Source: Actinomycetes bacterium (GTDB taxonomy: Bacteria > Actinomycetota > Acidimicrobiia > Acidimicrobiales > Acidimicrobilacustridaceae). From it: 64,000 nucleotides of DNA. Each line of letters opens with the position of its first letter. The stretch's first letter is position 1. Below, in pieces: positions 7,800 to 56,968 of the stretch. The DNA is taken from contig JAKOVH010000030.1 in NCBI GenBank assembly GCA_029782145.1, positions 124,001 through 188,000 of the forward strand. The letters run 5' to 3'. Below the pieces are notes generated by a model. It was given only the letters and a program-made list of their open reading frames with translations, did no database searches and was not told where the DNA came from. Both the position numbers and the translations under genes were made by a program.

Positions 7800-7822
7800 G
7801 CATCTGATGGAGTGTCAGATGC
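7800..7822. promoter_or_regulatory. Shared 19-bp palindrome, site A (before ipdE1)
   Basis: ATCTGATGGAGTGTCAGAT (7802-7820), extended to GC...GC at 7800-7822, matches ATCTGAC-N5-GTCAGAT at 13 of 14 arm positions. It lies downstream of TAGGAT (7779-7784), a -10 candidate, and 41 bases before the ipdE1 start. The same palindrome precedes three other operons here, which suggests one TetR-like repressor. Confidence 0.75.
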
Positions 7823-9845: not shown

Positions 9846-9898
9846 CGTTCTGGTGGAGGTTCGCCCCCCGGATCGGGGGGCGAACCTCCACCAGAACG
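9846..9898. repeat. Palindromic repeat, copy 2 (TTCTGGTGGAG family)
   Basis: A 24-bp perfect inverted repeat: arms 9846-9869 and 9875-9898, loop GGATC. The arm begins CGTTCTGGTGGAGGTTCG. It lies between the convergent ipdF and phosphotransferase genes, where it could end transcription from both sides. Confidence 0.85.
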
Positions 9899-14216: not shown

Positions 14217-14248
14217 ATCTGACTGATCGTCAGATCACCGTGTAGCGT
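14217..14248 (+). promoter_or_regulatory. Shared palindrome, site B, with leaderless promoter of echA20 operon
   Basis: ATCTGACTGATCGTCAGAT (14217-14235) matches all 14 arm positions of the shared motif. It directly precedes TAGCGT (14243-14248), a -10 box eight bases before the echA20 ATG. The transcript therefore probably begins at or next to the start codon. A repressor on the palindrome would cover the -35 region. Confidence 0.78.
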
Positions 14249-14256
14249 CGCCGGCC

Positions 14257-15048
14257 ATGGGGATCGAAGTCAGCGTCGGCGATGACGGCATCGCCGAGGT
14301 CGTGCAGAACTGCCCACCGGTCAACGCCCTCACCGTGGCCCAGTGGTTCGAGCTGGCCGACCAGGTGCGCCGGCTGGGCGACGACCGCACCGTGCGGGCC
14401 GTCATCCTGCGGGGCGAGGGCCGGGGCTTCAACGCCGGCGTCGACATCAAGGAGATGCAGAGCACCGAGGGCTTCGACGCGCTCATCGGCGCCAACCGGG
14501 GCTGCTACGAGGCGTTCGCCGCGGTCTACGAGTGCAAGGTCCCGGTGATCGCCGCGGCGCACGGCCACTGCGTCGGTGGCGGCATCGGCCTGGTGGGCAA
14601 CGCCGACGTCATCGTCGCCGCCGAGGGCACCAAGTTCGGCCTGCCCGAGGTCGACCGCGGGGCGCTCGGTGCCGCCACCCACCTCAGCCGCCTGGTGCCC
14701 CAGCACAAGATGCGCGAGATGGTCTACACGTCGGCCAACGCCACGGCCGAGCAGCTCCACGCCTGGGGCTCGGTGTCCCGTGTGGTGCCGGCCGACCAGC
14801 TGCTCGACGCCGCCCGGGAGATCGCCGGCAACATCGCCGCCAAGTCGCCCACCGTCATCCGGGCCGCCAAGGAGAGCCTCAACGGCATCGACCTGTGGGA
14901 CGTGAAGCGGAGCTACCGCTTCGAGCAGGGGTTCACCTTCGAGCTGAACCTCTCCGGCGTGTCCGACGACCTGCGTGACGACTTCGTCGCCGAGGGCAAG
15001 ACCGCTGGCTCGAGCGGCGAGACGAAGACCGAGAAGGGGAAGCAGTGA
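14257..15048 (+). CDS. echA20: EchA20, ring-opening enoyl-CoA hydratase-family hydrolase
   Basis: A 263-residue crotonase-fold protein. Its place directly before ipdA, ipdB and ipdC is the conserved Mycobacterium order (Rv3550-3553). In that pathway EchA20 hydrolyses a ring carbon-carbon bond of the HIP-derived CoA thioester. Visible are the oxyanion-loop segment GRGFNAGVDIKEMQS, the second 'AAHGHCVGGGIGLVGNADVIVAAEGTKFGLPEVDRGALG' stretch and a C-terminal region ending KTEKGKQ. The ATG sits eight bases after a TAGCGT -10 box without a ribosome-binding site, so the mRNA is probably leaderless. The stop overlaps ipdA (GTGA). Confidence 0.9.
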   Translation: MGIEVSVGDDGIAEVVQNCPPVNALTVAQWFELADQVRRLGDDRTVRAVILRGEGRGFNAGVDIKEMQSTEGFDALIGANRGCYEAFAAVYECKVPVIAAAHGHCVGGGIGLVGNADVIVAAEGTKFGLPEVDRGALGAATHLSRLVPQHKMREMVYTSANATAEQLHAWGSVSRVVPADQLLDAAREIAGNIAAKSPTVIRAAKESLNGIDLWDVKRSYRFEQGFTFELNLSGVSDDLRDDFVAEGKTAGSSGETKTEKGKQ

Positions 15049-15917
15049 GCCCAGCGGCACCGAGATCGAAGCGCACCACCGAGGACGAGGCGGTCGCCAC
15101 CCTCGCCGACGGCATGACCATCGGCATCGGCGGGTGGGGCAGCCGGCGCAAGCCCATGTCCCTGGTGCGGGCCCTGCTGCGCAGCGACGTGAAGGACCTC
15201 ACCGTCGTGTCCTACGGCGGCCCCGACGTGGGCCTGCTGTGCGCGGCGGGCAAGGTCCGCAAGCTGGTCTACGGCTTCGTGTCGCTCGACTCCATCGCCC
15301 TCGAGCCCCACTTCCGCCAGGCCCGCCAGAGCGGCACCATCCCCGAGGTCGTGGAGTACGACGAGGGCATGCTCCAGTGGGGCCTCTACGCGGCGAGCCT
15401 GCGCCTGCCGTTCCTGCCGACCCGGGCCGGCCTCGGCTCCGACGTGGTCGTCAACGACCCCACCCTGAAGACGGTGCGCAGCCCCTACGCCGACGGCGAG
15501 GAGCTGCTCGCCGTTCCGGCACTCACCCTCGACGCCGCCTTCGTGCACCTCAACCGGTCCGACGAGCGGGGCAACGCCCAGTTCCTCGGCCCCGACCTCT
15601 ACTTCGACGACCTGTTCCTGGCCGCCGCCGAGCCGGGCCGGCGCTTCCTCTCGTGCGAGAAGGTCGTGCCCACCGCCGAGCTGCTCGAGAACGGGTCGTT
15701 CCACACCCTGAAGATCAACCGCTCCATGGTCGACGGCGTGATCGAGGCGCCCAACGGCGCCCACTTCACCAACTGCCAGCCCGACTACGAGCGCGACGAG
15801 GCGTTCCAGAAGGAGTACGCCCAGGCCGCCGGCGACCCCGAGGCCTGGAAGGCGTTCGTCGACACCTACCTCTCCGGCAGCGAGGCCGACTACCAGAAGG
15901 CGGTGGCGTCCCGATGA
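15045..15917 (+). CDS. ipdA: IpdA, alpha subunit of the ring-opening hydrolase
   Basis: A 290-residue class I CoA-transferase-fold protein, the usual length for IpdA. With IpdB it forms a hydrolase that opens ring C of the steroid-derived cyclohexenone CoA (COCHEA-CoA) rather than transferring CoA. Characteristic stretches are TIGIGGWGSRRKPMSLVRAL near the N-terminus, 'VVSYGGPDVGLLCAAGKVRKLVYGF', and the central 'GLGSDVVV'. It starts at GTG overlapping the echA20 stop and its stop overlaps ipdB (ATGA), so expression of both subunits is coupled. Confidence 0.93.
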   Translation: MSPAAPRSKRTTEDEAVATLADGMTIGIGGWGSRRKPMSLVRALLRSDVKDLTVVSYGGPDVGLLCAAGKVRKLVYGFVSLDSIALEPHFRQARQSGTIPEVVEYDEGMLQWGLYAASLRLPFLPTRAGLGSDVVVNDPTLKTVRSPYADGEELLAVPALTLDAAFVHLNRSDERGNAQFLGPDLYFDDLFLAAAEPGRRFLSCEKVVPTAELLENGSFHTLKINRSMVDGVIEAPNGAHFTNCQPDYERDEAFQKEYAQAAGDPEAWKAFVDTYLSGSEADYQKAVASR

Positions 15918-16693
15918 GCGACGTGACGACCTCCAGCGACGTGACCCTCGGCGAGATCTGCGTGGCGGCGGTGGCCGACACCTTCCGGGGCGACGGCGAG
16001 ATCTTCGCCTCCGGCATGGGCACCATCCCGATGCTCGGCGCTCGCTTGGCCCGGGCCACGTTCGAGCCCGACCTGCTCGTCTCCGACGGCGAGGCCTTCT
16101 TCGTGGCCAACGACCTGCCGGTCGGAGGCACCGACAAGCAGGTCGAGGGCTGGATCCCGTTCCGCAGCGTGTTCGACACCCTGTGGGGCGGTCGCCGCCA
16201 CGTCGTGATGGGCGCCACCCAGATCGACCGCTACGGCAACCAGAACATCGCCAACATCGGTCCGTGGGCCCAGCCCAAGGCCCAGCTGCTCGGCGTGCGG
16301 GGCGCCCCCGGCAACACCATCAACCACACCACCAGCTACTTCATCGGCAACCACACCAGCCGGTGCTTCGTCGAGAAGGTCGACACCGTGTCCGGCATCG
16401 GCTACGACCGGGCGGCCGAGATGGGGGAGTGGGTGAAGGCCCACCACGAGATCCGCCGGGTCGTCACCAACCTGGCCGTGCTCGACTTCGCCACACCCGA
16501 CCACCGCATGCGCCTGGCCTCGGTGCACCCCGGCGTCACCGTCGACGACGTCGTGGCGGCCACCGGCTTCGAGCTGGTCGTGCCCGACGACGTGCCCACC
16601 ACCCGCACGCCCACCGACGACGAGCTGCGGGTGCTGCGCGAGGTCCTCGATCCCCGCAGCTTCCGCGACCGCGAGCTCCCCAAGCCGGCCTGA
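15914..16693 (+). CDS. ipdB: IpdB, beta subunit of the ring-opening hydrolase
   Basis: A 259-residue CoA-transferase-fold subunit partnering IpdA. Family segments include GMGTIPMLGARLARATFEPDL, 'VVMGATQIDRYGNQNIANIG' and 'RGAPGNTINHTTSYFIGNHTSRCFVEKVD', the last highly conserved in IpdB. The ATG overlaps the ipdA stop; the stop shares one base with the next start (TGATG). Together IpdA and IpdB hydrolyse ring C in HIP degradation. Its presence is strong evidence that the organism mineralises steroids. Confidence 0.93.
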   Translation: MSDVTTSSDVTLGEICVAAVADTFRGDGEIFASGMGTIPMLGARLARATFEPDLLVSDGEAFFVANDLPVGGTDKQVEGWIPFRSVFDTLWGGRRHVVMGATQIDRYGNQNIANIGPWAQPKAQLLGVRGAPGNTINHTTSYFIGNHTSRCFVEKVDTVSGIGYDRAAEMGEWVKAHHEIRRVVTNLAVLDFATPDHRMRLASVHPGVTVDDVVAATGFELVVPDDVPTTRTPTDDELRVLREVLDPRSFRDRELPKPA

Positions 16694-24833: not shown

Positions 24834-26081
24834 CTATGCCACGACGCCCTTGTCGCGCAGGGCGGCGATGGCGTCGGCGTCGAGGCCGAGCTCGGTGGAC
24901 AGCAGCTCGTCGGTGTGCTCACCCAGCCACGGCATGCGGGTCTCGGGGCCGTCGGCCATCTTCGTCATCTTGATGGGGTTGCCGGGCGTCAGCACCGGCT
25001 CGCCGCCGTCGGTGCGGGGGATCTCCACCACCATGTTGCGCTCGGCCAGGTGCGGGTCGGCGATGACCTGGGGCGGGGTGAGGCAGGGCCCCGCCGCCAC
25101 GCCCGCCTCGGCCAGCGCGAAGCAGGCCTCGAGGTTGGTCTTGTCGGCCGCCCACGCGCTGATGCCGGGGCGCAGCACGTGGTCCATGTGGTCGCGCCAG
25201 CCCTGCCGGGTGGACAGCCGCTCGTCGGTGACCCACTCGGGGTGGCCCACCAGGTTGGCCAGCCGCTCGAACTCGTGCTCGCGACCGCACTGCACGATGA
25301 ACCAGCCGTTGGAGGCCTCGAAGCCGTCGAGGATCATGGGCAGGCCCGCCCCCGGCTTCGGCCACGCGCCCATCGACCAGAAGTTCACGACGATGTCGGT
25401 CATGGCGACCATGGAGTCGAACATGGCGACGTCGACCCACTGGCCCTGGCCGGTGGCGTCGCGGTGGCGCAGAGCGGCGAGCAGGCCGATGGTGGCGAAC
25501 AGGGCGGTGCCGATGTCGCCGAGGGCGCCGACGGGCGACGGGGCCGGCGGCTGGCCCGGCGGGAGCTTGTAGCCGTAGATGCCCGACATGGCCTCGGCGA
25601 TGGCGGCGTAGGCGGGCCACCCGTCGTAGGGCGTGGGGGCGGTGTTGCCGAAGCCGGACACCGACACGTACACGACGGCCGGGTGCACGGCGGCGATGTC
25701 GTCGTAGCCGAGGCCCATCCGGGCGAGGGCCCCGCCCTTGAAGTTCTCGGCGACGATGTCGAACCTGGGGGCCAGGTCGAGGACGAGCTGCCTGCCCTCC
25801 GGGGCCTTGAGGTCGACGGCGATCGAGCGCTTGTTGAGGTTGTTGCGCAGGAAGGTGGCGCCGAGGTTGCGGCCTTCCGGGTCGGGCATGCCGGGCAGGG
25901 AGCCACGGCCGAGGTCGCCGCCCTTGGGGCTCTCGACCTTCACCACGTCGGCGCCCAGGCGGGCCAGCAGCTGGGTGGCGAAGGGCAGCGCCTGCATCTG
26001 CTCGAGGGCGAGCACCCGCACGCCGTCGAGGGGCTTGCCGAAGGGAAGGGCGTCGGCGTTTCCGGTGTCTCCGAGCTTCAT
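24834..26081 (-). CDS. Class III CoA-transferase (CaiB/BaiF family)
   Basis: A 415-residue formyl-CoA-transferase-type enzyme moving CoA between carboxylic acids. Conserved segments are LDGVRVLALEQMQALPFATQLLARLGADVVKVE, 'KRSIAVDLKAPEG', 'SGFGNTAPTPYDGWPAYAAIAEAMSG' and 'PVGALGDIGTALFATIGLLAAL', the last with the expected catalytic Asp region. It may activate steroid-derived acids without ATP. The ATG at 26081 is chosen because TAGGGT (plus-strand 26089-26094) ends seven bases upstream, a leaderless layout; an ATG at 26105 would add eight residues. Confidence 0.9.
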   Translation of the reverse strand: MKLGDTGNADALPFGKPLDGVRVLALEQMQALPFATQLLARLGADVVKVESPKGGDLGRGSLPGMPDPEGRNLGATFLRNNLNKRSIAVDLKAPEGRQLVLDLAPRFDIVAENFKGGALARMGLGYDDIAAVHPAVVYVSVSGFGNTAPTPYDGWPAYAAIAEAMSGIYGYKLPPGQPPAPSPVGALGDIGTALFATIGLLAALRHRDATGQGQWVDVAMFDSMVAMTDIVVNFWSMGAWPKPGAGLPMILDGFEASNGWFIVQCGREHEFERLANLVGHPEWVTDERLSTRQGWRDHMDHVLRPGISAWAADKTNLEACFALAEAGVAAGPCLTPPQVIADPHLAERNMVVEIPRTDGGEPVLTPGNPIKMTKMADGPETRMPWLGEHTDELLSTELGLDADAIAALRDKGVVA

Positions 26082-26088
26082 GCCGGCG

Positions 26089-26094
26089 ACCCTA
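26089..26094 (-). promoter_or_regulatory. Leaderless -10 box of the CoA-transferase gene
   Basis: On the minus strand TAGGGT is followed by seven bases and the ATG at 26081. The inverted repeat GGCGTGAACGCC lies just upstream of the box. Confidence 0.5.
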
Positions 26095-26138
26095 CCGGCG
26101 TTCACGCCAGGGCTCCGAGCCCCGAAGACGAGTCGGGG

Positions 26139-30720: not shown

Positions 30721-30744
30721 GTCTGACGGTCCATCAGATATCGT
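30721..30744 (+). promoter_or_regulatory. Shared palindrome, site C, with leaderless promoter
   Basis: GTCTGACGGTCCATCAGAT (30721-30739) matches 12 of 14 arm positions of the shared motif. TATCGT (30739-30744) overlaps its end and lies seven bases before the ATG at 30752. This is the same operator/-10/start geometry as in front of echA20. Confidence 0.75.
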
Positions 30745-30751
30745 GCCTGCC

Positions 30752-32143
30752 ATGCGCGGCATCGTCTCGTGGGGGGCCTACCTCCCGTACCGGCGGCTCG
30801 ACCGGAGCCACATCACGGCGTTCCTCGGGCAGGGGGGCGGCCGGGGCACCCGCACCGTCGCCTCCTACGACGAGGACACCACCACCATGGGGGTCGAGGC
30901 CGCCCGGCTGGCACTGACGGCCACCGACGCCACCCCGGAGCTCGTGGTGTTCGGCACCGTCGCCCCGGCCTACGCCGACAAGACCAACGCCACCAGCGTG
31001 CACGCCGCGCTGCGGCTGCCCGACGCCGTCCCGGCGCTCGACCTCGGCGCCTCCGTCCGCTCCGTCGTGGGCGGCCTGCGCCTCGCCCTGGCCGGCGGCG
31101 CCACGTCGCTCGTGGTGAGCGCCGACCTGCGCACCGGCCTGGCCGGTTCGGCCGACGAGGCCGCAGGCGGCGACGCCGCCGCCGCCCTCGTGGTGGGCGA
31201 GGGCGAGGGGGTCGTGGCCGAGCACCTCGGCGGCGCCAGCGTCACCGAGGAGTTCCTCGACCGGTGGCGCCAGCCCGGCGAGGTGCGCTCCAAGGTCTGG
31301 GACGACAAGTTCTCCGAGCTCACCTACGTCGGGCTGGGCCGCCAGGCGTTCAAGGAGGCGCTGGCCGCCACCGGCCTGGCCCCCGGCGACGTCACCACCG
31401 TGGCGGTGGCCGCCCCCACCGCCCGAATCGGCAAGGCGCTCGCCGGCAAGCTCGGCGTGGAGAAGGTGGCGGGCGACCTCACCGACACCGTCGGGGCCAC
31501 CGGCGCCGCCCAGCCCGGGCTGCTGCTGGCCTCCATGCTCGAGGACGCCGAGCCGGGCCAGGTGCTGGCCCTGGTCGTGCTCGCCGACGGCGCCGAGGTG
31601 CTGCTCTTCCGCACCACGCCCGCGCTGGCCTCGTTCACCCCGGCCCGACCGGTGGCCGCCCAGCTCGCGGCCGGCGCCCCGCTCACCTACAACCGCTTCC
31701 TCAGCTGGCGGGGGATGATCCAGCTCGAGCCGCCCCGCCGGCCCGAGCCCGCCCGCCCGTCGGGCACCGCCGCGGCCCGCAACGTGGAGTGGAAGTTCGG
31801 CTTCGTCGGCAGCCGCGACACCACCGACGGCATGGTGTTCCTGCCGCCGTCGCGGGTGTCCATCGACGGTGAGCGCACCGACGACATGGAGCCGGCCCCC
31901 ATGGCCGACGTGCAGGGCACCATCGCCACCTTCACCGTCGACCGCATGGCGTACTCGCCGAGCCCGCCCATCATCTTCGCCGTGGTCGACTTCGACGGGG
32001 GCGGCCGCCTGCCCATCGAGCTCACCGACACCGACCTCGAGGAGGTGGAGATCGGCGGTCGGGTCGAGATGACCTTCCGCAAGCTCTTCACCGCCGATGG
32101 CATCCACAACTACTTCTGGAAGGGGAAGCTGATCCGTGGCTAG
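30752..32143 (+). CDS. Cysteine-free HMG-CoA-synthase-like/DUF35 fusion
   Basis: A 463-residue protein. Residues about 1-330 resemble the thiolase-fold HMG-CoA synthase/KAS III family (opening GIVSWGAYLPYRRLDR; 'LVVSADLR', 'GDAAAALVVG'). Residues about 345-463 resemble a DUF35 OB-fold ('ADVQGTIATFTVDRMAYSPSPPIIFAVVDFDGGGRLP'). There is no cysteine anywhere. The nucleophile position reads LDLGASVRSVVGG, and the DUF35 zinc-ribbon cysteines are also replaced (WKFGFVGS...FLPPSRV). It therefore cannot do Claisen chemistry with an acyl-Cys; a retro-aldol or scaffold role is inferred. It overlaps the active thiolase gene by eight bases and is under the shared palindrome. Confidence 0.85.
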   Translation: MRGIVSWGAYLPYRRLDRSHITAFLGQGGGRGTRTVASYDEDTTTMGVEAARLALTATDATPELVVFGTVAPAYADKTNATSVHAALRLPDAVPALDLGASVRSVVGGLRLALAGGATSLVVSADLRTGLAGSADEAAGGDAAAALVVGEGEGVVAEHLGGASVTEEFLDRWRQPGEVRSKVWDDKFSELTYVGLGRQAFKEALAATGLAPGDVTTVAVAAPTARIGKALAGKLGVEKVAGDLTDTVGATGAAQPGLLLASMLEDAEPGQVLALVVLADGAEVLLFRTTPALASFTPARPVAAQLAAGAPLTYNRFLSWRGMIQLEPPRRPEPARPSGTAAARNVEWKFGFVGSRDTTDGMVFLPPSRVSIDGERTDDMEPAPMADVQGTIATFTVDRMAYSPSPPIIFAVVDFDGGGRLPIELTDTDLEEVEIGGRVEMTFRKLFTADGIHNYFWKGKLIRG

Positions 32144-33335
32144 TCATGGCATCCGCGACCGCGTGGCCATCGTCGGGATGGGCTGCACGAACTTCGTCGA
32201 GAACTGGGGCAAGAGCCTCGACGACCTGCTGATCGACGCCGCCAACGAGGCCTACGCCTCGGCCGGCGTCACCAAGGACGATGTCGACGCCTACTGGTTC
32301 GGCACCGCCCAGTCGGGCATGAGCGGCATCACCCTGGCCCGGCCGCTGCACCTCCACAACAAGCCGGTCACCCGGGTCGAGAACTACTGCGCGACCGGCT
32401 CCGAGGCGTTGCGCCAGGCCGCCTACGCGGTGGCCTCCGGCGCCTACGACCTCGCCATGGTGGTCGGCGGCGAGAAGGTCAAGGACACGGGCTTCCAGGG
32501 CCTCAACGCCTTCCCGATCCCCAACGACGGCACCGCCCGCACCCTCACCGCGGCGGCCATGTTCTCGATGATCGTGCCGGCCTACGGCCACAAGTACGGC
32601 GTCGACGACGACACCATGCGTTCGGTGCTCACCCACATCGCCCGCAAGAACCACTTCAACGGGGCCCGCAACACCCGCGCCCAGTTCCGCAAGGAGATCT
32701 CGGCCGAGCAGGTCGAGAAGGCGCCGAAGATGGCGGGCACGCTCGGCGTGTTCGACTGCGCCGGCGTGGCCGACGGCGCCGCTGCGGCGATCGTGTGCCG
32801 GGCCGAGGACGCCCACCGCTACACCGACACGCCCGTCTACGTGAAGGCGCTGTCGTTCGTGGCCGGCGACGGCTCGGGCCTCATCGACCCGAGCTACGAC
32901 TACACCACCTTCCCGGAGATCGCGGCGTGCGCCGTCGACGCCTACGCCCAGGCGGGCGTGAAGGACGCCCGGGCCGAGGTCGCCATGGCCGAGGTCCACG
33001 ACTGCTTCACGCCCACCGAGCTCGTGCTCATGGAGGACCTGCAGTTCTCCGAGCGGGGCACGGCGTGGCGCGACGTGCTCGACGGCGTGTTCGACCTCGA
33101 CGGCGAGCTGCCGGTGAACCCCGACGGCGGCCTCAAGAGCTTCGGCCACCCCACCGGCGCCAGCGGCCTGCGGATGATGTTCGAGGCGTTCCTGCAGCTG
33201 CGCGGCGAGGCCCCCGCCGAGCGGGCGATCTCCAGCCTGGTCGAGGGCCGCCAGCTCGCCCTCACCCACAACCTCGGCGGCTACCCCGGCGAGATGGTCA
33301 GCTTCATCTCGCTGCTCGGCGCCAGCAAGGACTGA
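32136..33335 (+). CDS. Thiolase-family acetyl-CoA acetyltransferase (SCP2-thiolase type)
   Basis: A 399-residue thiolase-fold enzyme. The nucleophile Cys85 is present (ENYCATGSEAL) and His338 sits in FGHPTGASG. The second cysteine region reads THNLGGYPGE rather than CxG, as in SCP-x/lipid-transfer-type thiolases. It probably cleaves a 3-oxoacyl-CoA. It starts at GTG 32136, overlapping the preceding Cys-less synthase-like gene, a pairing reminiscent of thiolase-HMGS-DUF35 complexes known from archaea. An AGGGGAAG site precedes the start. It lies in the unit controlled by palindrome site C. Confidence 0.9.
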   Translation: MASHGIRDRVAIVGMGCTNFVENWGKSLDDLLIDAANEAYASAGVTKDDVDAYWFGTAQSGMSGITLARPLHLHNKPVTRVENYCATGSEALRQAAYAVASGAYDLAMVVGGEKVKDTGFQGLNAFPIPNDGTARTLTAAAMFSMIVPAYGHKYGVDDDTMRSVLTHIARKNHFNGARNTRAQFRKEISAEQVEKAPKMAGTLGVFDCAGVADGAAAAIVCRAEDAHRYTDTPVYVKALSFVAGDGSGLIDPSYDYTTFPEIAACAVDAYAQAGVKDARAEVAMAEVHDCFTPTELVLMEDLQFSERGTAWRDVLDGVFDLDGELPVNPDGGLKSFGHPTGASGLRMMFEAFLQLRGEAPAERAISSLVEGRQLALTHNLGGYPGEMVSFISLLGASKD

Positions 33336-33362: not shown

Positions 33363-36035
33363 TCAGGCGGTGGTCGGGTCGGCCCAGCCGTCCAACACCC
33401 GTTCCAGGGCGTCGGCGGGCGCGGGGCTGCTCCAGAAGTACCCCTGCCCTCGGTCGCAGCCCAGGGCGACGAGGTGGTCACGCTGGTCGGCCGTCTCGAT
33501 GCCCTCGGCGACCACCGTGAGGCCGATGCCGTGGCTCATCTCGACGATGCCGCGGATGATCGCCCAGTCGGCGCGGTTCTCGGTCAGGCCACGGATGAAG
33601 GTCTGGTCGATCTTCAGCACCGACACGGGCAGCTGGCGCAGGTGGCCGAGCGACGAGTAGCCGGTGCCGAAGTCGTCCATGGCCAGCTCGACGCCGACAT
33701 CGCGCAGCTGGTTCAGGCGGCGGATGGCCCCGTCGGCGCCGGCGGTGAGCGCCGCCTCGGTGATCTCGAAGATGACCGCCGACGGGTCGACCCCGGCCTC
33801 GTCCAGCACGGCCGCCACGTCGGTGGCCAGGTCGTCCTGGGTGAGCTGGCGGGGCGAGAGGTTGACCGAGATGCGCGCCGGGTGGGCCCCTGCGCTGGTC
33901 TGCCACTCGGCGAGCTGGTGGCACGCCTTGCGCAGCACCAGGTCGCCGACCGGCACGATGAGCCCGGTCTCCTCGGCGAGGGTGATGAAGTTCCCCGGGC
34001 TGACCAGGCCCCGCTCGGGGTTCTTCCAGCGCACCAGCGCCTCGGCCCACACTTGGCGGTCGCCGTCGGGGGGCGCGTCCTGCAGGGGCAGGCAGGCCTG
34101 CCACACGACGATGAGCTCGTCGTCGTCGATGGCCCGTCGCAGTGCGGTCGCCTGGTCGATGCGGCGCCGCGCCTGGCGGCGCAGGTCGTTGTCGAACAGC
34201 TCGGTGTGGTCCGGGCCCCGGCTCACGGCGCGCTCGAGGGCGGCGTCGGCCTCCCGCAGCAGCTGGTCGGCGGTGCTGTCGACCACCGGGCGGACGGCGA
34301 CCCCGATGCTGGCCGTGACCTGCAGGGCGACGTCGCCCACGGTGAAGACCGGCGCCAGCGCGACCCGCACCCGGTCGGTGAGGTCGGTGATGTCGTCGAT
34401 GGTGCCGTCGGTGACCCGGAGCACGGCGAACTCGTCGGCGCGCATGCGGGCCACCACGTCGTCGGGGTCGCCGGCGCTGCGCAACCGCTCGGCGATGCCG
34501 ACGAGGAGCTCGTCGCCCACGTCGGTCCCGTAGCCCTCGACCAGCTCCTCGAACCCGTCGAGGTGCACCATCAGCACGCCGACGATGGCTCCCGTGCCGT
34601 CGAGGCGACCGATGGTCTGCTCGAGTCGGTCGCGCAGCAGCTCCCGGTTGGGGAGTGACGTGACGGGGTCGTTGAGGGCCATCACGACCTTCGGTGGCCA
34701 CAGGCGCCAGGTGCGGTCCATGGATGCGGTCAGCACCTCGGCGAAGCGGGCGAGGAGCGCCTGCTGGGCGGGGGCCAGCTCCGGGCCCTGCACGGCGAAC
34801 GAGGGCCGGCGGCCGGGCTGGGCGTCGAGGTGCACGGTGGAGGCCGGCCCGGCGACTCGTGCCGCGGCGGCGATGGCGGCGTCGGCGACCTCGTCGGGGT
34901 CGTCGCTGGCCAGGGCCAGCAGCGCCAGCTGGTGCAGCTCGTCGAGGTCCCGCGAGGAGGTGGGCGCCTCGACGAGCGCCCGGTCGGGCTCGAGCTCGGA
35001 CCCCGCCTCCAGCTCCGGCGCAGCCTCGAGCTCCGGCGCGGCCTCCATCTCGGGCGCGGCGTCCGGCTCCGGACCCAGCTCGAGCCCTAGCTCGGGCTCG
35101 GGCTCGGTGTCGAGGATGGTCCGGTCGAGGGCGAAGGACATCTCCGAGGCCAGCCACTCGAGCACGGTGAGCGCCTCGTCGGAGAACCCGGACACGAGTG
35201 GGCTGACGAGCGCCATGACCGCAACCGGCCGGTCGTGGTGACGCAGCGGCAGCACGCACAGCGACCGCAGCTGCTCGACGGGTGCTCCGTGGAGCAGGGT
35301 GAAGCACGGCTCGCGCTCCAGGTCGGCGACCACGACGGTCTTGCCGAGGGCGGCGGCGCGGGCGGCGGGCACGTCGTCGTCGACGTCGCACCAGAGGTCG
35401 GCGACGTACGGGGCCGCCGGGCCGGCGACGGTGACGGGGCGGACGGCGTCGTCGCCCACGGTCGCCACCCAGCCCAGGCTGAAGCCCCCCCGCTCGATCA
35501 CCGCCTCGCACACCGTGGCGTAGATCTCCTGGTCGGAGTCGGCGTGCAGGATGGCCGAGACCGCCCGGGCGAACATGGCGTAGAGGTCGGCCAGCTGCGC
35601 CACCTGCTTGCCCACCGCGGCCGGGTCGGTGAGGTCGCGCAGCACGGCGAGCGACAGCGGCCCGTCGTCGGTCGGCAGCGTGGCGATGGTGATGTCGACG
35701 GGCACGACCTCACCGTCGCGCCGGACACCTCGCAAGAGGCGCCCGCTGCGGTGGTCGGCGGGGTCGGGGTCCTGGCTGAAGCTCTCGCGGTGCAGCCGGT
35801 GCAGGTCGCGCAGCTCCTCGGGCACGAGCTTCTCGACCCGGCGCCCGACGAGCTTGTCCGGCGGGTAGCCGAACAGGGTGTGGGCGGCGTCGTTGGCCAC
35901 CACGATGCGACCGTCGGCGTCGCACACGACCACCGCCTCGGGCATGGCCCGCAGGGCCAGGGCGGCGAGCGACTTTGCGCCGGGGACACGTCCCTTCGGT
36001 CGCGGCGGCTCGTGCTTGGTCGGTCGGGCTCCCAC
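33363..36035 (-). CDS. PAS-GAF-(GAF)-GGDEF-EAL cyclic-di-GMP protein with degenerate GGDEF
   Basis: An 890-residue cytoplasmic signalling protein. The order is PAS (about 25-145), GAF (about 165-300), an acidic Glu/Pro/Ala linker with APELEA-type repeats (about 310-360), a second small GAF-like part, GGDEF (about 455-610) and EAL (about 625-880). The GGDEF signature reads RADEF, so cyclase activity is probably lost. The EAL site looks intact: EALVRW, ISVNLSP, the DDFGTGYSSL loop, LKIDQ and EGIE. It should therefore act as a c-di-GMP phosphodiesterase. No membrane segments. GTG start at 36035; a better-placed downstream start cannot be excluded. Confidence 0.9.
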   Translation of the reverse strand: MGARPTKHEPPRPKGRVPGAKSLAALALRAMPEAVVVCDADGRIVVANDAAHTLFGYPPDKLVGRRVEKLVPEELRDLHRLHRESFSQDPDPADHRSGRLLRGVRRDGEVVPVDITIATLPTDDGPLSLAVLRDLTDPAAVGKQVAQLADLYAMFARAVSAILHADSDQEIYATVCEAVIERGGFSLGWVATVGDDAVRPVTVAGPAAPYVADLWCDVDDDVPAARAAALGKTVVVADLEREPCFTLLHGAPVEQLRSLCVLPLRHHDRPVAVMALVSPLVSGFSDEALTVLEWLASEMSFALDRTILDTEPEPELGLELGPEPDAAPEMEAAPELEAAPELEAGSELEPDRALVEAPTSSRDLDELHQLALLALASDDPDEVADAAIAAAARVAGPASTVHLDAQPGRRPSFAVQGPELAPAQQALLARFAEVLTASMDRTWRLWPPKVVMALNDPVTSLPNRELLRDRLEQTIGRLDGTGAIVGVLMVHLDGFEELVEGYGTDVGDELLVGIAERLRSAGDPDDVVARMRADEFAVLRVTDGTIDDITDLTDRVRVALAPVFTVGDVALQVTASIGVAVRPVVDSTADQLLREADAALERAVSRGPDHTELFDNDLRRQARRRIDQATALRRAIDDDELIVVWQACLPLQDAPPDGDRQVWAEALVRWKNPERGLVSPGNFITLAEETGLIVPVGDLVLRKACHQLAEWQTSAGAHPARISVNLSPRQLTQDDLATDVAAVLDEAGVDPSAVIFEITEAALTAGADGAIRRLNQLRDVGVELAMDDFGTGYSSLGHLRQLPVSVLKIDQTFIRGLTENRADWAIIRGIVEMSHGIGLTVVAEGIETADQRDHLVALGCDRGQGYFWSSPAPADALERVLDGWADPTTA

Positions 36036-36127: not shown

Positions 36128-37276
36128 CTACAGGCGCTCGATGATGGTGACGTTGGCCTGGCCGCCGCCCTCGCACATCGTCTGCAGGCCGTAGCGGCCG
36201 CCGGTGCGCTCGAGCTCGTTGAGCAGCGTGGTCATCAGGCGCACGCCGGTGGCGCCGAGCGGGTGGCCGAGGGCGATGGCGCCGCCGTTGACGTTGACCT
36301 TGGCCGGGTCGGCGCCGGTCTCCTTCTGCCAGGCCAGCACCACCGAGGCGAACGCCTCGTTGATCTCGACGAGGTCGATGTCGTCGAGGCTCATCTTCGC
36401 CTTGGCCAGCGCGTGGGCGGTGGCGGGGATGGGGGCCGTCAGCATGTAGATCGGGTCGTCGGCCAGCACCGACAGGTGGTGGATGCGGGCCCGCGGCGTG
36501 AGGCCGTGGTCCTTCACCGCCTGCTCGCTGGCGATGAGCATGGCGGCCGAGGCGTCGGAGATCTGCGAGGCGCAGGCGGCGGTGAGCCGGCCACCCTCCA
36601 CGAGGGGCGGCAGCGAGCGGATCTTCTCCCAGTTCGGCTCTCGGGGGCCCTCGTCGTGGCGCAGCCCGTTGAGCTCGAAGATCTCCCGCTCGAAGCGGCC
36701 CTCCTCGCGGGCGCGGATGGCGCGCTCGTGGCTCTCGACCGCGAACCGCTCCATGTCGTCGCGGCTGATGTCCCACTTCTCGGCGATCATCTCGGCGCCG
36801 CGGAACTGGCTGACCTCCTGGGTGCCGTAGCGCTCGACCCAGCCGGTGGAGCCGGTGAACGGGTCGGTGAAGCCGAACTGCTCGCCGACGGTCATGGCTG
36901 CCGAGATCGGGATCCACGACATGTTCTGCACGCCGCCCGCGACCACGAGGTCCTGGGTGCCGCTCATGACGCCCTGGGCGGCGAAGTGCACCGCTTGCTG
37001 CGACGAGCCGCACTGGCGGTCGACGGTGGTGCCGGGCACGTGCAACGGCAGGCCCGCGGCCAGCCAGCACGTGCGGGCGATGTCGCCGGCCTGGCCGCCG
37101 ATGGTGTCGAGGCAGCCGAACACGACGTCCTCCACCGCGCCCGGGTCGACGCCCGTGCGGCCCATCAGCTCCTTCAGCGCGGCGGCGCCGAGGTCGGCGG
37201 GGTGCACCTGCGAGAGGCTGCCGCCCCGCCGGCCGACGGGGGTGCGGACGGTGTCGATGATGTAGGCCTCGGCCAT
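36128..37276 (-). CDS. fadA6: FadA6 thiolase of HIP degradation
   Basis: A 382-residue canonical thiolase. The nucleophile Cys89 is in [22 protein letters not shown], the His is in [14 protein letters not shown], and the second Cys is in [18 protein letters not shown]. The N-terminal [19 protein letters not shown] and the C-terminus closely match mycobacterial FadA6 (Rv3556c), which releases acetyl-CoA or succinyl-CoA units from the opened HIP rings. ATG at 37276 follows GAAGGGA. It ends the DUF35-ltp-fadA6 operon under palindrome site D. Unlike in Mycobacterium no kstR2 gene is beside it. Confidence 0.92.
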
Positions 37277-37314: not shown

Positions 37315-38517
37315 TCAGGTGGCCAGGATCGTGCACGAGCCGTGCCCGAACAGGCCCTGGTTGATGGCGAGGCCCACGCTGGCCCCTTCGACCTGGTGGC
37401 CCTCGCACCGGCCCTGCAGCTGGCGGGTCAGCTCGCAGACCTGGGCGATGGCCTGGGCGGGGATGGCCTCGCCGAACGACGACAGCCCGCCCGAGGCGTT
37501 CACCGGCACCCGGCCCCCGAGGGCGGTGACGCCGTCGCGCACGAGCTTGGCCCCCTCGCCCTCGGCGCACAGGCCGAGGTTCTCGTACCAGTCGAGCTCC
37601 AGCGCGGTCGACAGGTCGTAGACCTCGGCGCAGCTGATGTCGTCAGGGCCGAGGCCGGCCTGCTCGTAGGCGTTGTGGGCGATCGAGTCCTTGAACCCGA
37701 GCGCCGGCGGCGCCACCACCGCCCGGGAGTCGGTGGCGATGTCGGGCAGCTCGAGGCGCACCTGCGGGTAGGTCGGCGTGGTGTTGGCCACGGCCTTGAT
37801 GCGCACGGTGCCCTCCAGGGTGCCGAGCTTGCGCTTGGCGTACTCGGGGGTGCACACGATCAGCGCGGCGGCGCCGTCGGAGGTGGCGCACACGTCGAGG
37901 AGCCGCAGCGGGTCGCTCACGATGGGGGAGGAGGCGAAGTCCTCCAGGGTGAACTCCTTGCGGAACCGGGCGTAGGGGTTGTGCACGGCGGCCTTGGAGT
38001 TCTTCACCTTCACCATGGCGAAGTCCTCGGGCGTGTCGCCGAAGACGTCGATGCGTCGGCGGGCGTTCAGCGCGAAGAACGACGGGTTGGTGGCCCCGAG
38101 CAGGTGGAAGCGCTGCCAGTCCGGGTCCTCCTTGCGCTCGCCGCCCACGGGAGCGAAGAAGCCCTTCGGGGTGGTGTCGGCGCCGATCACCATGGCGACG
38201 TCGGCGAAGCCGGCGAGCAGCTGGGCCCGGGCTGACTGCAGGGCCTGGGCGCCGGACGCGCAGGCGGCGTAGGACGACGAGATCTGCGCCCCGGTCCAGC
38301 CGAGGGCCTGGGAGAAGGTGGAGCCCGAGACGAACCCGGGGTAGCCGTTGCGGATGGTGTCGGCGCCGGCGACGAACTCGATGTCGCGCCAGGCGACGTC
38401 GGCGTCGGCGAGGGCCTCGCGGGCGGCCACCAGGCCGTACTCCACGAAGTTGCGGCCCCACTTGCCCCAAGGGTGCATGCCGGTGCCGAGCACCACCAGG
38501 TCGCGGTCGTCGCTCAC
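37315..38517 (-). CDS. Lipid-transfer-protein-type thiolase (Ltp3/Ltp4-like)
   Basis: A 400-residue SCP2-thiolase-like protein. It opens SDDRDLVVLGTGMHPWGKWGRNFVEYG. Cys86 sits at the nucleophile position (SYAACASGAQALQSAR), and ADTIRNGYPGFVSGSTFSQ is well conserved. It resembles the Ltp3/Ltp4 pair of mycobacterial cholesterol clusters, where a DUF35 gene (Rv3521) also precedes them. GTG start overlaps the DUF35 stop (GTGA), so the two are probably a complex. The step is probably a retro-aldol or thiolytic cleavage; which one is unresolved. Confidence 0.88.
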   Translation of the reverse strand: MSDDRDLVVLGTGMHPWGKWGRNFVEYGLVAAREALADADVAWRDIEFVAGADTIRNGYPGFVSGSTFSQALGWTGAQISSSYAACASGAQALQSARAQLLAGFADVAMVIGADTTPKGFFAPVGGERKEDPDWQRFHLLGATNPSFFALNARRRIDVFGDTPEDFAMVKVKNSKAAVHNPYARFRKEFTLEDFASSPIVSDPLRLLDVCATSDGAAALIVCTPEYAKRKLGTLEGTVRIKAVANTTPTYPQVRLELPDIATDSRAVVAPPALGFKDSIAHNAYEQAGLGPDDISCAEVYDLSTALELDWYENLGLCAEGEGAKLVRDGVTALGGRVPVNASGGLSSFGEAIPAQAIAQVCELTRQLQGRCEGHQVEGASVGLAINQGLFGHGSCTILAT

Positions 38518-38966
38518 CGGGCACCTCCCGACGGGGCGGCGGGCGCCCAGGTCCAGACCCACTTCTCGACGCCGTCGTCGTCGGTGAACAGCACCTGCAG
38601 GTCGACCTCGACCTCCATGCCGATCTCGAGGTCGGCGGCCATGACGCCCTTGGCGACCTGCCCGAGGATCACCAGGCCCTCGGCCTCGAGCTCCACCGCG
38701 GCGAGGGCGTAGGGCTCGAACGGGTCGGCGGCCACGTAGGGGGCAGGCGGGGCGTAGTGGTTCTCGGTGTAGGACCAGATGCGGCCGCGGCGCGACAGCT
38801 CGGCGGGCTCGAGGTCGGTGCCGTCGCAGCCGGGGTTGGGGCAGGCGCCGGAACGGGGCGGGAACACGTAGGTCCCGCAGGCCGAGCACCGGGCGCCGAT
38901 CAGCGTGTAGGGCTCCTCGGTGGTGAACCAGCCGTCCACCGCCGGGACCCGCTCTCGGGTCGTCAC
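38514..38966 (-). CDS. DUF35 OB-fold zinc-ribbon partner protein
   Basis: A 150-residue DUF35 protein with a zinc ribbon (Cys27, Cys30, Cys42, Cys47 in ARCSACGTYVFPPR...ACPNPGC) followed by an OB-fold that binds acyl-CoA. Such proteins are obligate partners of thiolase-fold aldolases, and the next gene is one. It starts at GTG 38966; TAGATT (minus strand) lies six bases upstream, which suggests a leaderless message. The GAGGGG before GTG is too close to serve as a ribosome-binding site. It is the first gene of the operon under palindrome site D. Confidence 0.9.
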   Translation of the reverse strand: MTTRERVPAVDGWFTTEEPYTLIGARCSACGTYVFPPRSGACPNPGCDGTDLEPAELSRRGRIWSYTENHYAPPAPYVAADPFEPYALAAVELEAEGLVILGQVAKGVMAADLEIGMEVEVDLQVLFTDDDGVEKWVWTWAPAAPSGGAR

Positions 38967-38972
38967 CCCCTC

Positions 38973-38992
38973 AATCTAACGGTCCGTCAGAT
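38973..38992 (-). promoter_or_regulatory. Shared palindrome, site D, with leaderless promoter
   Basis: On the plus strand ATCTAACGGTCCGTCAGAT (38974-38992) matches 13 of 14 arm positions. Read on the minus strand its end overlaps TAGATT (38973-38978), a -10 box six bases from the GTG at 38966. The geometry matches sites B and C. Confidence 0.78.
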
Positions 38993-39016: not shown

Positions 39017-39045
39017 GTTGGACATACGAGTATCGTGCGTCCAAC
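39017..39045 (+). promoter_or_regulatory. Inverted repeat over the icmF promoter
   Basis: GTTGGAC (39017-39023) and GTCCAAC (39039-39045) flank ATACGAGTAT and TATCGT (39031-39036), a -10 candidate 35 bases before the icmF ATG. It looks like an operator distinct from the neighbouring shared palindrome. Confidence 0.55.
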
Positions 39046-39071
39046 GGAACGATCGCCCGAGAGGGAGTCCG

Positions 39072-42000
39072 ATGGCTGGAAGCGAGCTGCACGCGCCCGT
39101 GCACCCGGTGCGCGTGGTGACGGCCACGTCGCTGTTCGACGGCCACGACGCCGCCATCAACATCATGCGGCGGATCCTCCAGGCCCAGGGGGCCGAGGTG
39201 ATCCACCTGGGGCACAACCGGTCGGTCGGTGAGATCGTCGACGCCGCCGTGCAGGAGGACGTGCAGGCGGTGGCGGTGAGCTCCTACCAGGGCGGCCACG
39301 TCGAGTTCTTCCGCTACCTGGTCGACCTGCTGCGCGAGCGCGGCGCCGGCCACGTGCGGGTCTACGGCGGCGGGGGAGGGGTGATCATCCCGAGCGAGAT
39401 CGCCGAGCTGCAGGCCTACGGCGTGGCCCGCATCTTCTCGCCCGAGGACGGCGCCCGTCTGGGGCTGGCCCGCATGGTCAACCAGATCGTGGCCGAGTGT
39501 GACGTCGACCCGCTCACCCGGGGCCCGTCGCCGTCCACCGAGGCGCTCCTGACCGGCGACGCCCTCGCCCTCGCCCGCACCATCACCGCGCTCGAGCTCG
39601 GCGCGCTCGACCGCGTGGCCCACGACGAGGTGCTCGCCGCCGCGGCGTCGCTCGTGGTGTCGGTGCTCGGCATCACCGGCACCGGCGGCTCGGGCAAGTC
39701 GTCGCTCACCGACGAGATCATCGGCCGCTTCCGGCGCGACCAGGGCGACAAGCTCCGCATCGCCGTGGTGGCCGTCGACCCCACCCGTCGCCGCACGGGA
39801 GGCGCCCTGCTGGGCGACCGGATCCGGATGAACTCGGTCGACGGGCCCCAGGTGTTCTTCCGGTCGCTGGCCACCCGCTCCGGCGGCTCGGAGGTGCCCG
39901 AGCACCTCGACGACGTCGTCGCCGCCTGCAAGGCCGCCGGCTTCGACCTGGTCATCGTCGAGACCCCGGGCATCGGCCAGGGCGACGCCGGCATCGTGGG
40001 CCACGTCGACACGTCGCTCTACGTGATGACGCCGGAGTTCGGCGCCGCCAGCCAGCTCGAGAAGATCGACATGCTCGACCTGGCCGACGTGGTCGCCATC
40101 AACAAGTTCGACCGCCGCGGCGGCGAGGACGCCCTGCGCGACGTGCGCCGCCAGTTCGCCCGCGACCGCGAGCTCTTCGGCGCCGACCTCGACGAGCTGC
40201 CCGTGTTCGGCACCATCGCCTCGCGGTTCAACGACGACGGCGTCACCGCCCTCTACCAGCACCTCCGTGGGGTGCTCGCCGAGCATGGCCTGCCCGTCGG
40301 CGACGGCCAGCTGGCACCGGTCGAGGTCCGGGCGTCGTCGGGCTCCACCGTGGTCGTGCCGCCCGAGCGGGGCCGCTACCTGGCCGACATCGCCGGCACC
40401 GTGCGGGCCCACCACGCCGAGACCCGACGGCTGGCCGAGGTGGTGCGCGCCGCCCAGCGCCTCGGGTGGTCCGCGGCCCACCTGGCCGGCGCGGGGGCCG
40501 ATGCGGGCGGCCTGCCCGAGGTGGCCGCGGCGGCCCGGCGGGCCGTCCCCGCCGAGGTGCAGGCCGAGCTCGACGCGTGGCCGGCCGTGGTGGACGAGCA
40601 CCGCAGCGAGGAGCTGGCGCGCCGCTCGCTGTCGGGCACCCTGGTGCCCCGGGTGGCGGCGCCGACGTTCGCCGACGACGGCGACCTGGTGACCTTCCTC
40701 CGCTCGGAGAACCTGCCGGGCCGGTTCCCGTTCACCGCCGGCGTGTTTCCCCTCAAGCGCGAGGGCGAGGACCCCACGCGGATGTTCGCCGGCGAAGGGG
40801 ATGCGTTCCGCACCAACCGGCGGTTCCACCTGCTGTCCGCCGACATGCCCGCCACCCGGCTGTCGACCGCCTTCGACTCCGTCACCCTCTACGGCTTCGA
40901 CCCGGCCGAGCGCCCCGACATCTACGGCAAGGTCGGCAACGCCGGCGTGTCGATCTGCACCCTCGAGGACATGGAGGTCCTCTACTCCGGCTTCGACCTG
41001 TGCGACCCCACCACCTCGGTGTCGATGACCATCAACGGGCCCGCCCCGACGGTGCTGGCCATGTTCCTCAACACCGTCATCGAGCAGCAGCTCGACCGCT
41101 TCGAGGCCGAGCACGGCCGCCGCCCCGACGACGCCGAGGCCGCCGAGCTCCGAGCCGTCGCCCTGCGCACCGTGCGCGGAACCGTGCAGGCCGACGTGCT
41201 CAAGGAGGACCAGGGCCAGAACACCTGCATCTTCTCCACCGAGTTCGCCCTGCGCCTCATGGCCGACGTGCAGGAGTGGTTCGTCGCCAACCAGGTGCGG
41301 AACTTCTACTCGGTGTCGATCTCCGGCTACCACATCGCCGAGGCAGGTGCGAACCCCATCTCGCAGCTGGCGTTCACCCTCGCCAACGGCTTCACCTACG
41401 TCGAGTCGTACCTCGCCCGGGGCATGGACGTCGACGACTTCGCGCCCAACCTGTCGTTCTTCTTCAGCAACGGCATGGACCCGGAGTACACGGTGCTGGG
41501 TCGGGTCGCCCGGCGCATCTGGGCGGTGGCCATGCGCGACCGCTACGGCGCCAGCGAGCGCTCGCAGAAGCTGAAGTACCACGTGCAGACCTCGGGCCGC
41601 TCGCTGCACGCCCAGGAGATGGACTTCAACGACATCCGCACCACGCTGCAGGCGCTCATCGCCGTCTACGACAACTGCAACAGCCTGCACACCAACGCCT
41701 TCGACGAGGCGGTCACCACCCCCACCGAGGCCTCGGTGCGGCGGGCCATGGCCATCCAGCTCATCATCAACCGCGAGTGGGGCCTGGCCATGAACGAGAA
41801 CCCCAACCAGGGCTCGTACGTCATCGAGGAGCTCACCGACCTGGTGGAGGAGGCGGTGCTGGCCGAGCTCGAGCGCATCAGCGAGCGCGGCGGCGTGCTC
41901 GGCGCCATGGAGCTGGGCTACCAGCGGGGCCGCATCCAGGACGAGTCGATGCTCTACGAGCAGAAGAAGCACGACGGCTCGCTGCCGATCATCGGGGTGA

Positions 42001-42281
42001 ACACCTTCACCCGCGACGGCGACGGCGCCGATCAGGAGCCGGTCGAGCTCGAGCTGGCCCGCTCCACCGAGGAGGAGAAGCACCGGCAGCTCAGCCGCCT
42101 GGCCGAGTTCCGCACCGTCCATGCCGGCGACCGGCCGGCCGCCCTCGCCCGGGTGCAGCAGGCCGCCCTCACCGGCGGCAACGTGTTCGCCGAGCTGATG
42201 GACGCGGTGCGCTGCTGCAGCCTCGGGGAGATCACCGATGCCCTGTTCGAGGTCGGCGGCCGCTACCGCCGCAACGTGTGA
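39072..42281 (+). CDS. icmF: Fused isobutyryl-CoA mutase (IcmF)
   Basis: A 1069-residue adenosylcobalamin enzyme that interconverts branched and linear acyl-CoAs (isobutyryl/butyryl and relatives). The order is a B12-binding domain (about 1-140, with D23-G-H25 in SLFDGHDAAINIMRR), a MeaB-like G-protein chaperone domain (P-loop GTGGSGKSS at 203-211; 'ETPGIGQGDAG'; NKFDRRGG), a linker, and the TIM-barrel mutase domain (about 540-1069). Length and order match IcmF. ATG at 39072 with GAGGGAG is preferred over an upstream TTG at 39018, which lies inside the promoter repeat. It fits rearrangement of branched acyl-CoA from steroid side chains or valine. Confidence 0.94.
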   Translation: MAGSELHAPVHPVRVVTATSLFDGHDAAINIMRRILQAQGAEVIHLGHNRSVGEIVDAAVQEDVQAVAVSSYQGGHVEFFRYLVDLLRERGAGHVRVYGGGGGVIIPSEIAELQAYGVARIFSPEDGARLGLARMVNQIVAECDVDPLTRGPSPSTEALLTGDALALARTITALELGALDRVAHDEVLAAAASLVVSVLGITGTGGSGKSSLTDEIIGRFRRDQGDKLRIAVVAVDPTRRRTGGALLGDRIRMNSVDGPQVFFRSLATRSGGSEVPEHLDDVVAACKAAGFDLVIVETPGIGQGDAGIVGHVDTSLYVMTPEFGAASQLEKIDMLDLADVVAINKFDRRGGEDALRDVRRQFARDRELFGADLDELPVFGTIASRFNDDGVTALYQHLRGVLAEHGLPVGDGQLAPVEVRASSGSTVVVPPERGRYLADIAGTVRAHHAETRRLAEVVRAAQRLGWSAAHLAGAGADAGGLPEVAAAARRAVPAEVQAELDAWPAVVDEHRSEELARRSLSGTLVPRVAAPTFADDGDLVTFLRSENLPGRFPFTAGVFPLKREGEDPTRMFAGEGDAFRTNRRFHLLSADMPATRLSTAFDSVTLYGFDPAERPDIYGKVGNAGVSICTLEDMEVLYSGFDLCDPTTSVSMTINGPAPTVLAMFLNTVIEQQLDRFEAEHGRRPDDAEAAELRAVALRTVRGTVQADVLKEDQGQNTCIFSTEFALRLMADVQEWFVANQVRNFYSVSISGYHIAEAGANPISQLAFTLANGFTYVESYLARGMDVDDFAPNLSFFFSNGMDPEYTVLGRVARRIWAVAMRDRYGASERSQKLKYHVQTSGRSLHAQEMDFNDIRTTLQALIAVYDNCNSLHTNAFDEAVTTPTEASVRRAMAIQLIINREWGLAMNENPNQGSYVIEELTDLVEEAVLAELERISERGGVLGAMELGYQRGRIQDESMLYEQKKHDGSLPIIGVNTFTRDGDGADQEPVELELARSTEEEKHRQLSRLAEFRTVHAGDRPAALARVQQAALTGGNVFAELMDAVRCCSLGEITDALFEVGGRYRRNV

Positions 42282-47453: not shown

Positions 47454-47465
47454 CGACCTCCCCTC

Positions 47466-47574
47466 CGCTGGCTCGATCCATCACCTCATGAGGTGATGGA
47501 TCGAGCCAGCGGTCGGTGGGGCGGGGATCGCTGGCTCGATCGGTGGTCCCATCGGGTGATGGATCGAGCCAGCG
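47466..47574. repeat. Tandem pair of 46-bp palindromes between divergent genes
   Basis: 47466-47511 is a perfect 46-bp palindrome (arm begins CGCTGGCTCGATCCATCACC). 47529-47574 is a second element with the same outer 12-bp arms and an identical right half, but a mismatched left inner half. Seventeen bases separate them. They sit between two divergent gene starts, so termination is an unlikely main role. Confidence 0.85.
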
Positions 47575-56327: not shown

Positions 56328-56968
56328 CGGCGGTCAGCGAGGCGCAGGTCGGGCCCCGGCCGCGGTCGGCGGCCCAGGCCGCCACCCGGCAGCGGCTGCT
56401 CGACGCGGCCCGCCAGCTGGCCGCCGCCGGCGGCTACGGCGCCGTCACCATGCGGGCCGTGGCCGACCGCGCCGGCGTGTCGCCGCCGACCGCCTACCAG
56501 TACTTCGCCTCGCGCGACCACGTGCTCGTCGAGCTGCTCACCAGCCTGAGCGGCGGCGCCACCGCCGTGTTCACCACCCGCCCGAGCCGCCGGCGCGACC
56601 CCGTCGAGCGCACCGTCGCCACGCTGCGGCGGGTGGTGAAGCTGGTGGAGCAGGAGCCGCAGCTGTTCGTCGCCATGATCCGGGCCTACCTCTCCGGGAC
56701 GCCCGAGGCCCGCACCGCCAGCGCGGCCATGCGCTCGTCGATGCGGTCGTGGATCGACAGCGCCCTCGGTGACACCCCGGTGCGAGACCGCGCCGACGTG
56801 GTCGCCCTGCTCGAGGCCGTGCTCTTCACCGGCCTGGCCGGCCTGGTGATCGGCGGCCGCACGCCGGCCGACCTGGGCGACGACCTCGAACGGGCCGCCC
56901 GGCTCCTGCTGGAGCGCGTGCCGGACCCGGCGCCCGCAGCAGGCGGCACCCCAAATACCTCTATATGA
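56324..56968 (+). CDS. TetR-family regulator inside the dehydrogenase operon
   Basis: A 214-residue TetR. The HTH is 'GAVTMRAVADRAGVSPPTAYQYFASRDHVLVELL' (about 40-75), a KstR-like layout, followed by a ligand-binding helical domain (EQEPQLFVAMIRAYLSGTPEARTAS ... AVLFTGLAGLVIGGRTPADLG). The only plausible start is TTG 56324, overlapping the dehydrogenase stop; no ATG or GTG lies close by. A -10 candidate (TATGAT, 56964-56969) overlaps its end and could start the next unit. None of the ATCTGAC-N5-GTCAGAT palindromes is near it. Confidence 0.87.
   Translation: MTAVSEAQVGPRPRSAAQAATRQRLLDAARQLAAAGGYGAVTMRAVADRAGVSPPTAYQYFASRDHVLVELLTSLSGGATAVFTTRPSRRRDPVERTVATLRRVVKLVEQEPQLFVAMIRAYLSGTPEARTASAAMRSSMRSWIDSALGDTPVRDRADVVALLEAVLFTGLAGLVIGGRTPADLGDDLERAARLLLERVPDPAPAAGGTPNTSI

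Follow-up and report, generated by a model that had tools for sequence, protein, structure and literature searches.

The closest described systems to the locus analysed here are complexes in which a thiolase is combined with an HMG-CoA-synthase-like (HMGS-like) protein and a DUF35 protein. The archaeal thiolase/HMGCS/DUF35 complex (PDB 6ESQ) contains these three modules and belongs to the mevalonate pathway. The PhlACB/CsATase acyltransferase (PDB 5M3K, 5MG5, 9SKH) combines an HMGS-like subunit without a nucleophile and a DUF35 subunit with a single thiolase-like subunit that is active: the nucleophilic Cys and the Glu are missing from PhlA, and the acting residues all belong to PhlC (PMC6392133). 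Activity requires expression of the full operon (PMC12955522). PhlA and PhlB are separate proteins, PhlB has a Cys4 zinc, and the enzyme acts on phenols without CoA. Benzoylsuccinyl-CoA thiolase BbsAB (PDB 7PXP) is a degradative thiolase with a DUF35 subunit whose zinc finger is intact; to our knowledge, it has no HMGS-like domain. The steroid aldolases Ltp2-ChsH2 and Sal-Shy (PDB 6OK1, 9MYR) also pair a thiolase fold with DUF35, in steroid degradation. Their catalytic residues are Tyr/Tyr in Ltp2 and Tyr/Cys in Sal, CtSal has Gly at the position of the thiolase nucleophile, and the partner DUF35 domains retain a zinc finger of the C4 or C3H1 type (PMC12329534).

Here, we describe a pair of overlapping genes, P1 and P2, in a 64,000-nucleotide stretch of an acidimicrobiial genome (the window). 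P1 and P2 share with the archaeal complex the same three modules and folds, and the thiolase nucleophile is Cys85 in both. Unlike the archaeal proteins, P1 fuses the HMGS and DUF35 modules, lacks the HMGS Cys, Glu, and His, and belongs to a clade without zinc ligands, and the pair lies in a degradation regulon. In contrast to PhlACB, P1 is fused and predicted to be zinc-free, and P1/P2 is located among CoA-ester degradation genes. What is new here is this fused, putatively zinc-free form of a known type of thiolase complex; an HMGS-like subunit without its nucleophile is not new in itself, PhlA being the precedent.

Table 1. Coordinates, within the window, of P1, P2, the operator sites, and the genes of the presumed regulon.
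Feature	Position	Strand	Remarks
Operator TCTGATGGAGTGTCAGA	7803..7819		upstream of acyl-CoA dehydrogenase 7862-9046
Operator TCTGACTGATCGTCAGA	14218..14234		upstream of EchA20-like gene / IpdA-like/IpdB-like operon
EchA20-like crotonase	14257..15048	+	PRK07938, 407 bits
IpdA-like CoA-transferase-fold subunit	15045..15917	+	PF01144
IpdB-like CoA-transferase-fold subunit	15914..16693	+	PF01144
Class III (CaiB-like) CoA-transferase	24834..26105	-	conserved neighbour of steroid-clade P1/P2
Operator TCTGACGGTCCATCAGA	30722..30738		1 mismatch to TCTGAC-N5-GTCAGA; 14 bp upstream of P1
P1, HMG-CoA-synthase-like/DUF35 fusion	30752..32143	+	463 aa, ATG 30752, no Cys
P1 residues 1-325, HMGCS/KAS III-like thiolase-fold domain	30752..31726	+	catalytic Glu/Cys/His replaced by V70/V102/A220
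P1 residues ~344-386, zinc-ribbon remnant	31781..31909	+	ligand positions D356, D359, S370, G373
P1 residues ~387-463, OB fold	31910..32140	+	Pfam OB_ChsH2_C
P2, SCP2-type thiolase	32136..33335	+	PRK06157, 576 bits; Cys85, His288-Asp-Cys290 (HDCF), His338 (GHP)
FadA6-like classical thiolase	36128..37276	-	PRK07801, 704 bits
Ltp-type thiolase	37315..38529	-	PRK06059
Separate DUF35 protein, zinc ribbon intact	38514..38966	-	zf-ChsH2
Operator TCTAACGGTCCGTCAGA	38975..38991		between DUF35-Ltp-thiolase (FadA6-like) operon and IcmF
IcmF fused acyl-CoA mutase/GTPase	39018..42281	+	downstream of 38975 operator

Lost sites in P1

As originally predicted, the P1 frame contains not a single Cys, and both the acyl-enzyme nucleophile and the four zinc ligands are gone. 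At the Cys frequency of 1.13% found in 30 window proteins, a Cys-free protein of 463 residues would arise by chance with a probability of about 0.5%, and 21 of the 66 sequences of the steroid-linked clade described below are likewise free of Cys. The specific losses point to more than composition. Glu82, Cys114, and His238 of the archaeal HMGCS align with V70, V102, and A220 of P1, and no aligned homologue has the respective Glu, Cys, or His at these positions, whether it keeps the ribbon Cys or lacks them, the replacing residues differing from one homologue to another. The four ribbon Cys of relatives align with D356, D359, S370, and G373, and a Pfam scan of P1 found no match to zf-ChsH2, the DUF35 zinc ribbon with four Cys or C3H1. 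Judged from these alignments, the active-site and ribbon losses are not due to chance, and P1 is unable to form an acyl-Cys, as had been proposed. Annotation models place P1-type proteins close to 'hydroxymethylglutaryl-CoA synthase', yet P1 is rejected as such an enzyme: in addition to the lost triad, it misses both equivalog cut-offs (TIGR00748, 119 bits vs 244; NF003274, 67 bits vs 353). The C-domain, on the other hand, exceeds the threshold of OB_ChsH2_C (46.9 bits vs 27.1).

The predicted structures, all modelled as single chains, agree with the assignment of P1 as an HMGS-like domain joined to a DUF35 OB fold. The AlphaFold2 model of P1, based on 36 homologues, has a pLDDT of 91.3 and a pTM of 0.92, and in it the HMGS fold is predicted to be intact. 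The best structural match of the N-terminal 325 residues is 6esq_I (Z 44.2, 1.7 A over 324 residues), and PhlA, with Z about 42, is also among the best matches. The last 144 residues, modelled separately (pLDDT 84.3), gave 21 Foldseek matches at E < 0.001, every one of them a DUF35 chain; PhlB, chains of 6ESQ (6esq_E/F), BbsA, and ChsH2 are the best of these, and MucABC, Shy, and Trf are also among them.

An SCP2-type thiolase next to P1

P2, a protein of 399 residues, overlaps P1 by 8 bp and retains Cys85 and His338, both as first described. Its score exceeds the cut-off of NCBIfam PRK06157 (NF004810), which is 403 bits. Cys85, His288, Cys290, and His338 are invariant among 139 classified P2 homologues, except for one gapped sequence. 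On this evidence P2 has the residues that a thiolase needs. Its best PDB match by sequence is 6esq_A, the thiolase of the archaeal complex (4e-50), vs 5e-21 for Ltp2 (6ok1). Together with the structural matches of P1, this bears out the suggested likeness to archaeal thiolase-HMGS-DUF35 assemblies. Wherever the flank of a homologue locus is long enough to judge, a P2-like thiolase adjoins P1; the three modules of the PhlACB or thiolase-HMGCS-DUF35 type are thus encoded together, as a fusion and an adjacent thiolase.

A shared operator and the link to steroid genes

The proposed shared operator is borne out by counts. The window has four sites with at most one mismatch to TCTGAC-N5-GTCAGA, whereas ten shuffles gave none. 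The 4.2-Mb genome has 12 such sites, nine of which fall within 218 kb of contig C2 (72.9-290.8 kb). The operator precedes P1 in 32 loci, all of them in a 66-member clade whose P1 lacks the four ribbon Cys, and in none outside it. One genome (G306) carries both a P1 copy without ribbon Cys, with the operator, and a copy with all four, without the operator. The window holds no match to CAAGNNCTTG, which we take to be the core of the mycobacterial KstR2 operator; membership in a KstR2 regulon was rejected, the shared palindrome being a different one. Part of the interest of the region is that, in uncultured Acidimicrobiia, C/D-ring genes stand under an operator that is unfamiliar. Elsewhere in the same genome (L071:3141-4775, at about 289.1-290.8 kb of contig C2), a DUF35 domain with an intact ribbon forms the N-terminal part of a fusion with a PRK07855-type lipid-transfer thiolase; an AMP-ligase and the operator site TCTGACGGATCGTCAGA adjoin it.

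The names EchA20, IpdAB, and FadA6 are used here on the basis of NCBIfam/Pfam matches and gene order rather than characterised reference proteins, and the EchA20 marker is defined as PRK07938 above its cut-off. The marker occurs in 60 of 63 genomes of the 66-member clade, vs 12 of 49 outside it: 1 of 11 genomes of other P1s without ribbon Cys and 11 of 38 genomes of P1s that retain them. Fisher's test gives p 9e-16 when ancestry is ignored; the clade arose once, and an independent-pairs sign test has no power here. A homologue of the class III CoA-transferase neighbours P1 in 27 of 42 clade loci, vs 1 of 35 others; in several relatives it is directly divergent from P1. In two loci (L113, L145), no more than about 6 kb separates P1/P2 from the EchA20-IpdA-IpdB-like genes. 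More generally, P1/P2 neighbourhoods are beta-oxidation-like, with acyl-CoA dehydrogenases, crotonases, CoA ligases, and a CoA-transferase.

Because the operator sites all fall in the clade and the EchA20 marker follows the same division, the C/D-ring link that the original prediction gave to the pair is real for the 66-member clade, not for the P1 family as a whole. A steroid link for the whole family was rejected, since 36 genomes of a 296-genome sample of the phylum have P1 without the EchA20 marker. Homologues that keep their Cys and have no steroid link had been named in advance as counterevidence; with respect to the ribbon they do exist outside the steroid clade (27 of the 38 genomes tested), and none keeps the nucleophile. 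Conversely, P1/P2 is absent from 14 of 26 EchA20-positive genomes in the phylum sample, which at a guess include mycobacteria, so the P1/P2 step either is not shared by all or is carried out in these genomes by other means. Two genomes (G331 and G332; L087, L092) have the EchA20 marker, yet the only P1 found in them has four ribbon Cys and no operator.

Spread and history of the family

The P1 family is wider than first supposed. In a phylum-wide sample of 296 genomes, 48 have a homologue, and at least 448 stretches of GTDB contigs contain one; PRK06157 scores above its cut-off in 47 of the 296, a distribution that nearly equals that of P1. Trees of P1 were quick maximum-likelihood trees with support by SH-aLRT only. 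In a tree of 121 sequences, the 66 members of the steroid-linked clade, all without the four ribbon Cys, form one nested clade; its cultured members are Thermomonospora echinospora and Actinocorallia populi. Another 16 sequences beyond it also lack the ribbon Cys, and distant members retain all four. When the ribbon columns are left out, the tree requires four changes of ribbon state rather than one, and a single loss is therefore not firm.

Since the HMGS triad is gone in all aligned homologues and the ribbon Cys are kept in some, the dead HMGS domain is a trait of the family and the loss of the ribbon came later. P1 would then clearly illustrate how the scaffold of a thiolase complex can lose its enzymatic site first and its metal site afterwards. 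Ribbon loss probably also preceded the steroid link, because the 16 other sequences without ribbon Cys mostly come from genomes without EchA20 and all lack the operator. Ribbon loss as a strict mark of a steroid role was rejected, as this sister group is mostly without EchA20. In two steroid-clade P1s with the operator (G036, L013/L065; and L154), the entire ribbon segment is deleted, beyond the loss of Cys.

Proposed role of the pair

We propose, with a probability of about 0.68, that P1/P2 is an obligate hetero-oligomeric thiolase, made of a dead P1 and an active P2, in the steroid C/D-ring regulon of the clade. P1 and P2 would assemble into a complex of the PhlACB or archaeal thiolase-HMGCS-DUF35 type. 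P2 would hold the sole active site and, going by its family, would cleave a beta-ketoacyl-CoA via acyl-Cys85, with His288, Cys290, and His338 also taking part in catalysis. P1 would unite subunits A (HMGS-like) and B (DUF35) in one chain and do the work of PhlA and PhlB together. On the analogy of PhlA, PhlB, and 6ESQ, it may be catalytically dead and metal-free, acting as scaffold of the complex and/or as part of a CoA-binding surface. A scaffold or CoA-ester role had been suggested at the outset and remains plausible. P1/P2 is a good, concrete candidate for the enzyme of a step in steroid catabolism at which a carbon-carbon bond is broken and to which none has been assigned.

Which step this could be is constrained by the FadA6-like thiolase. 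Most P1-positive, EchA20-positive relatives also have a FadA6-like gene, and P1/P2 should therefore do another thiolysis; in the clade of the window it would perform this beside the FadA6-like enzyme, presumably in the thiolytic direction. The substrate might tentatively be 2-methyl-beta-ketoadipyl-CoA, cleaved to propionyl-CoA and succinyl-CoA. SCP2-type thiolases act on alpha-methyl-branched substrates, and we prefer this compound because its alpha-methyl branch suits them and the step has no named enzyme. Crowe et al. proposed this reaction, the last thiolysis, without naming its enzyme (PMC5380842).

The alternative that survives best is that P1/P2 is itself the thiolase of the FadA6 step, which would convert the IpdAB product to MOODA-CoA and acetyl-CoA. 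The identity of that thiolase has been termed 'less clear', and FadA5 substitutes for FadA6 in vitro (PMC5380842). We consider this reading unlikely, as a duplicate is not needed where a FadA6-like gene is already present, and P1/P2 as a FadA6 replacement was rejected on this co-occurrence. Less probable still is that P2 is synthetic (Claisen) or a PhlC-like CoA-independent acyltransferase, and that the pair is merely co-regulated with steroid genes. The nearest solved complexes are indeed biosynthetic (6ESQ) or acyltransferases (PhlACB, MucABC), yet the neighbourhoods of P1/P2 are beta-oxidation-like and the operator ties the pair to degradation genes.

It is highly improbable that P1 still catalyses a reaction of its own, by a new chemistry without Cys in the HMGS pocket, and that an intermediate is channelled from it to P2. 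Residues such as R34, D40, D42, R127, E136, D141, W172, and R225, among others, are invariant across the family and the fold is predicted to be intact, which speaks for such chemistry; but all three catalytic residues are replaced by ones that vary between homologues, and PhlA shows that a dead subunit has precedent. The original suggestion of an Ltp2/Sal-type retro-aldol enzyme acting on a steroid beta-hydroxyacyl-CoA is disfavoured as the least probable of all, despite the shared superfamily, the match of P2 to Ltp2, the matches of the P1 C-domain to the ChsH2 and Shy DUF35 domains, and the position in a steroid regulon, because P2 is nearer to 6esq_A than to 6ok1 and, like its homologues, retains the thiolase nucleophile with the HDCF and GHP motifs, whereas CtSal carries a YDCY motif and a Gly where the nucleophile would stand (PMC12329534).

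Other features of the region

Between the CoA-transferase and P1 (26139-30734) lie a molybdopterin oxidoreductase, an LLM oxidoreductase, and a P450. TetR proteins are encoded in the region as well, one of them at 56324-56968. On the other side, a large sensor-like protein (33363-36035, minus strand; PAS/GAF/GGDEF/EAL by reading) is encoded between P2 and the FadA6-Ltp-DUF35 operon; in one relative (L109), P2 and this operon directly adjoin. Two long perfect inverted repeats, with arms of 25 and 24 bases, are located near gene ends at 9846-9898 and 47465-47512 and are possibly terminators.
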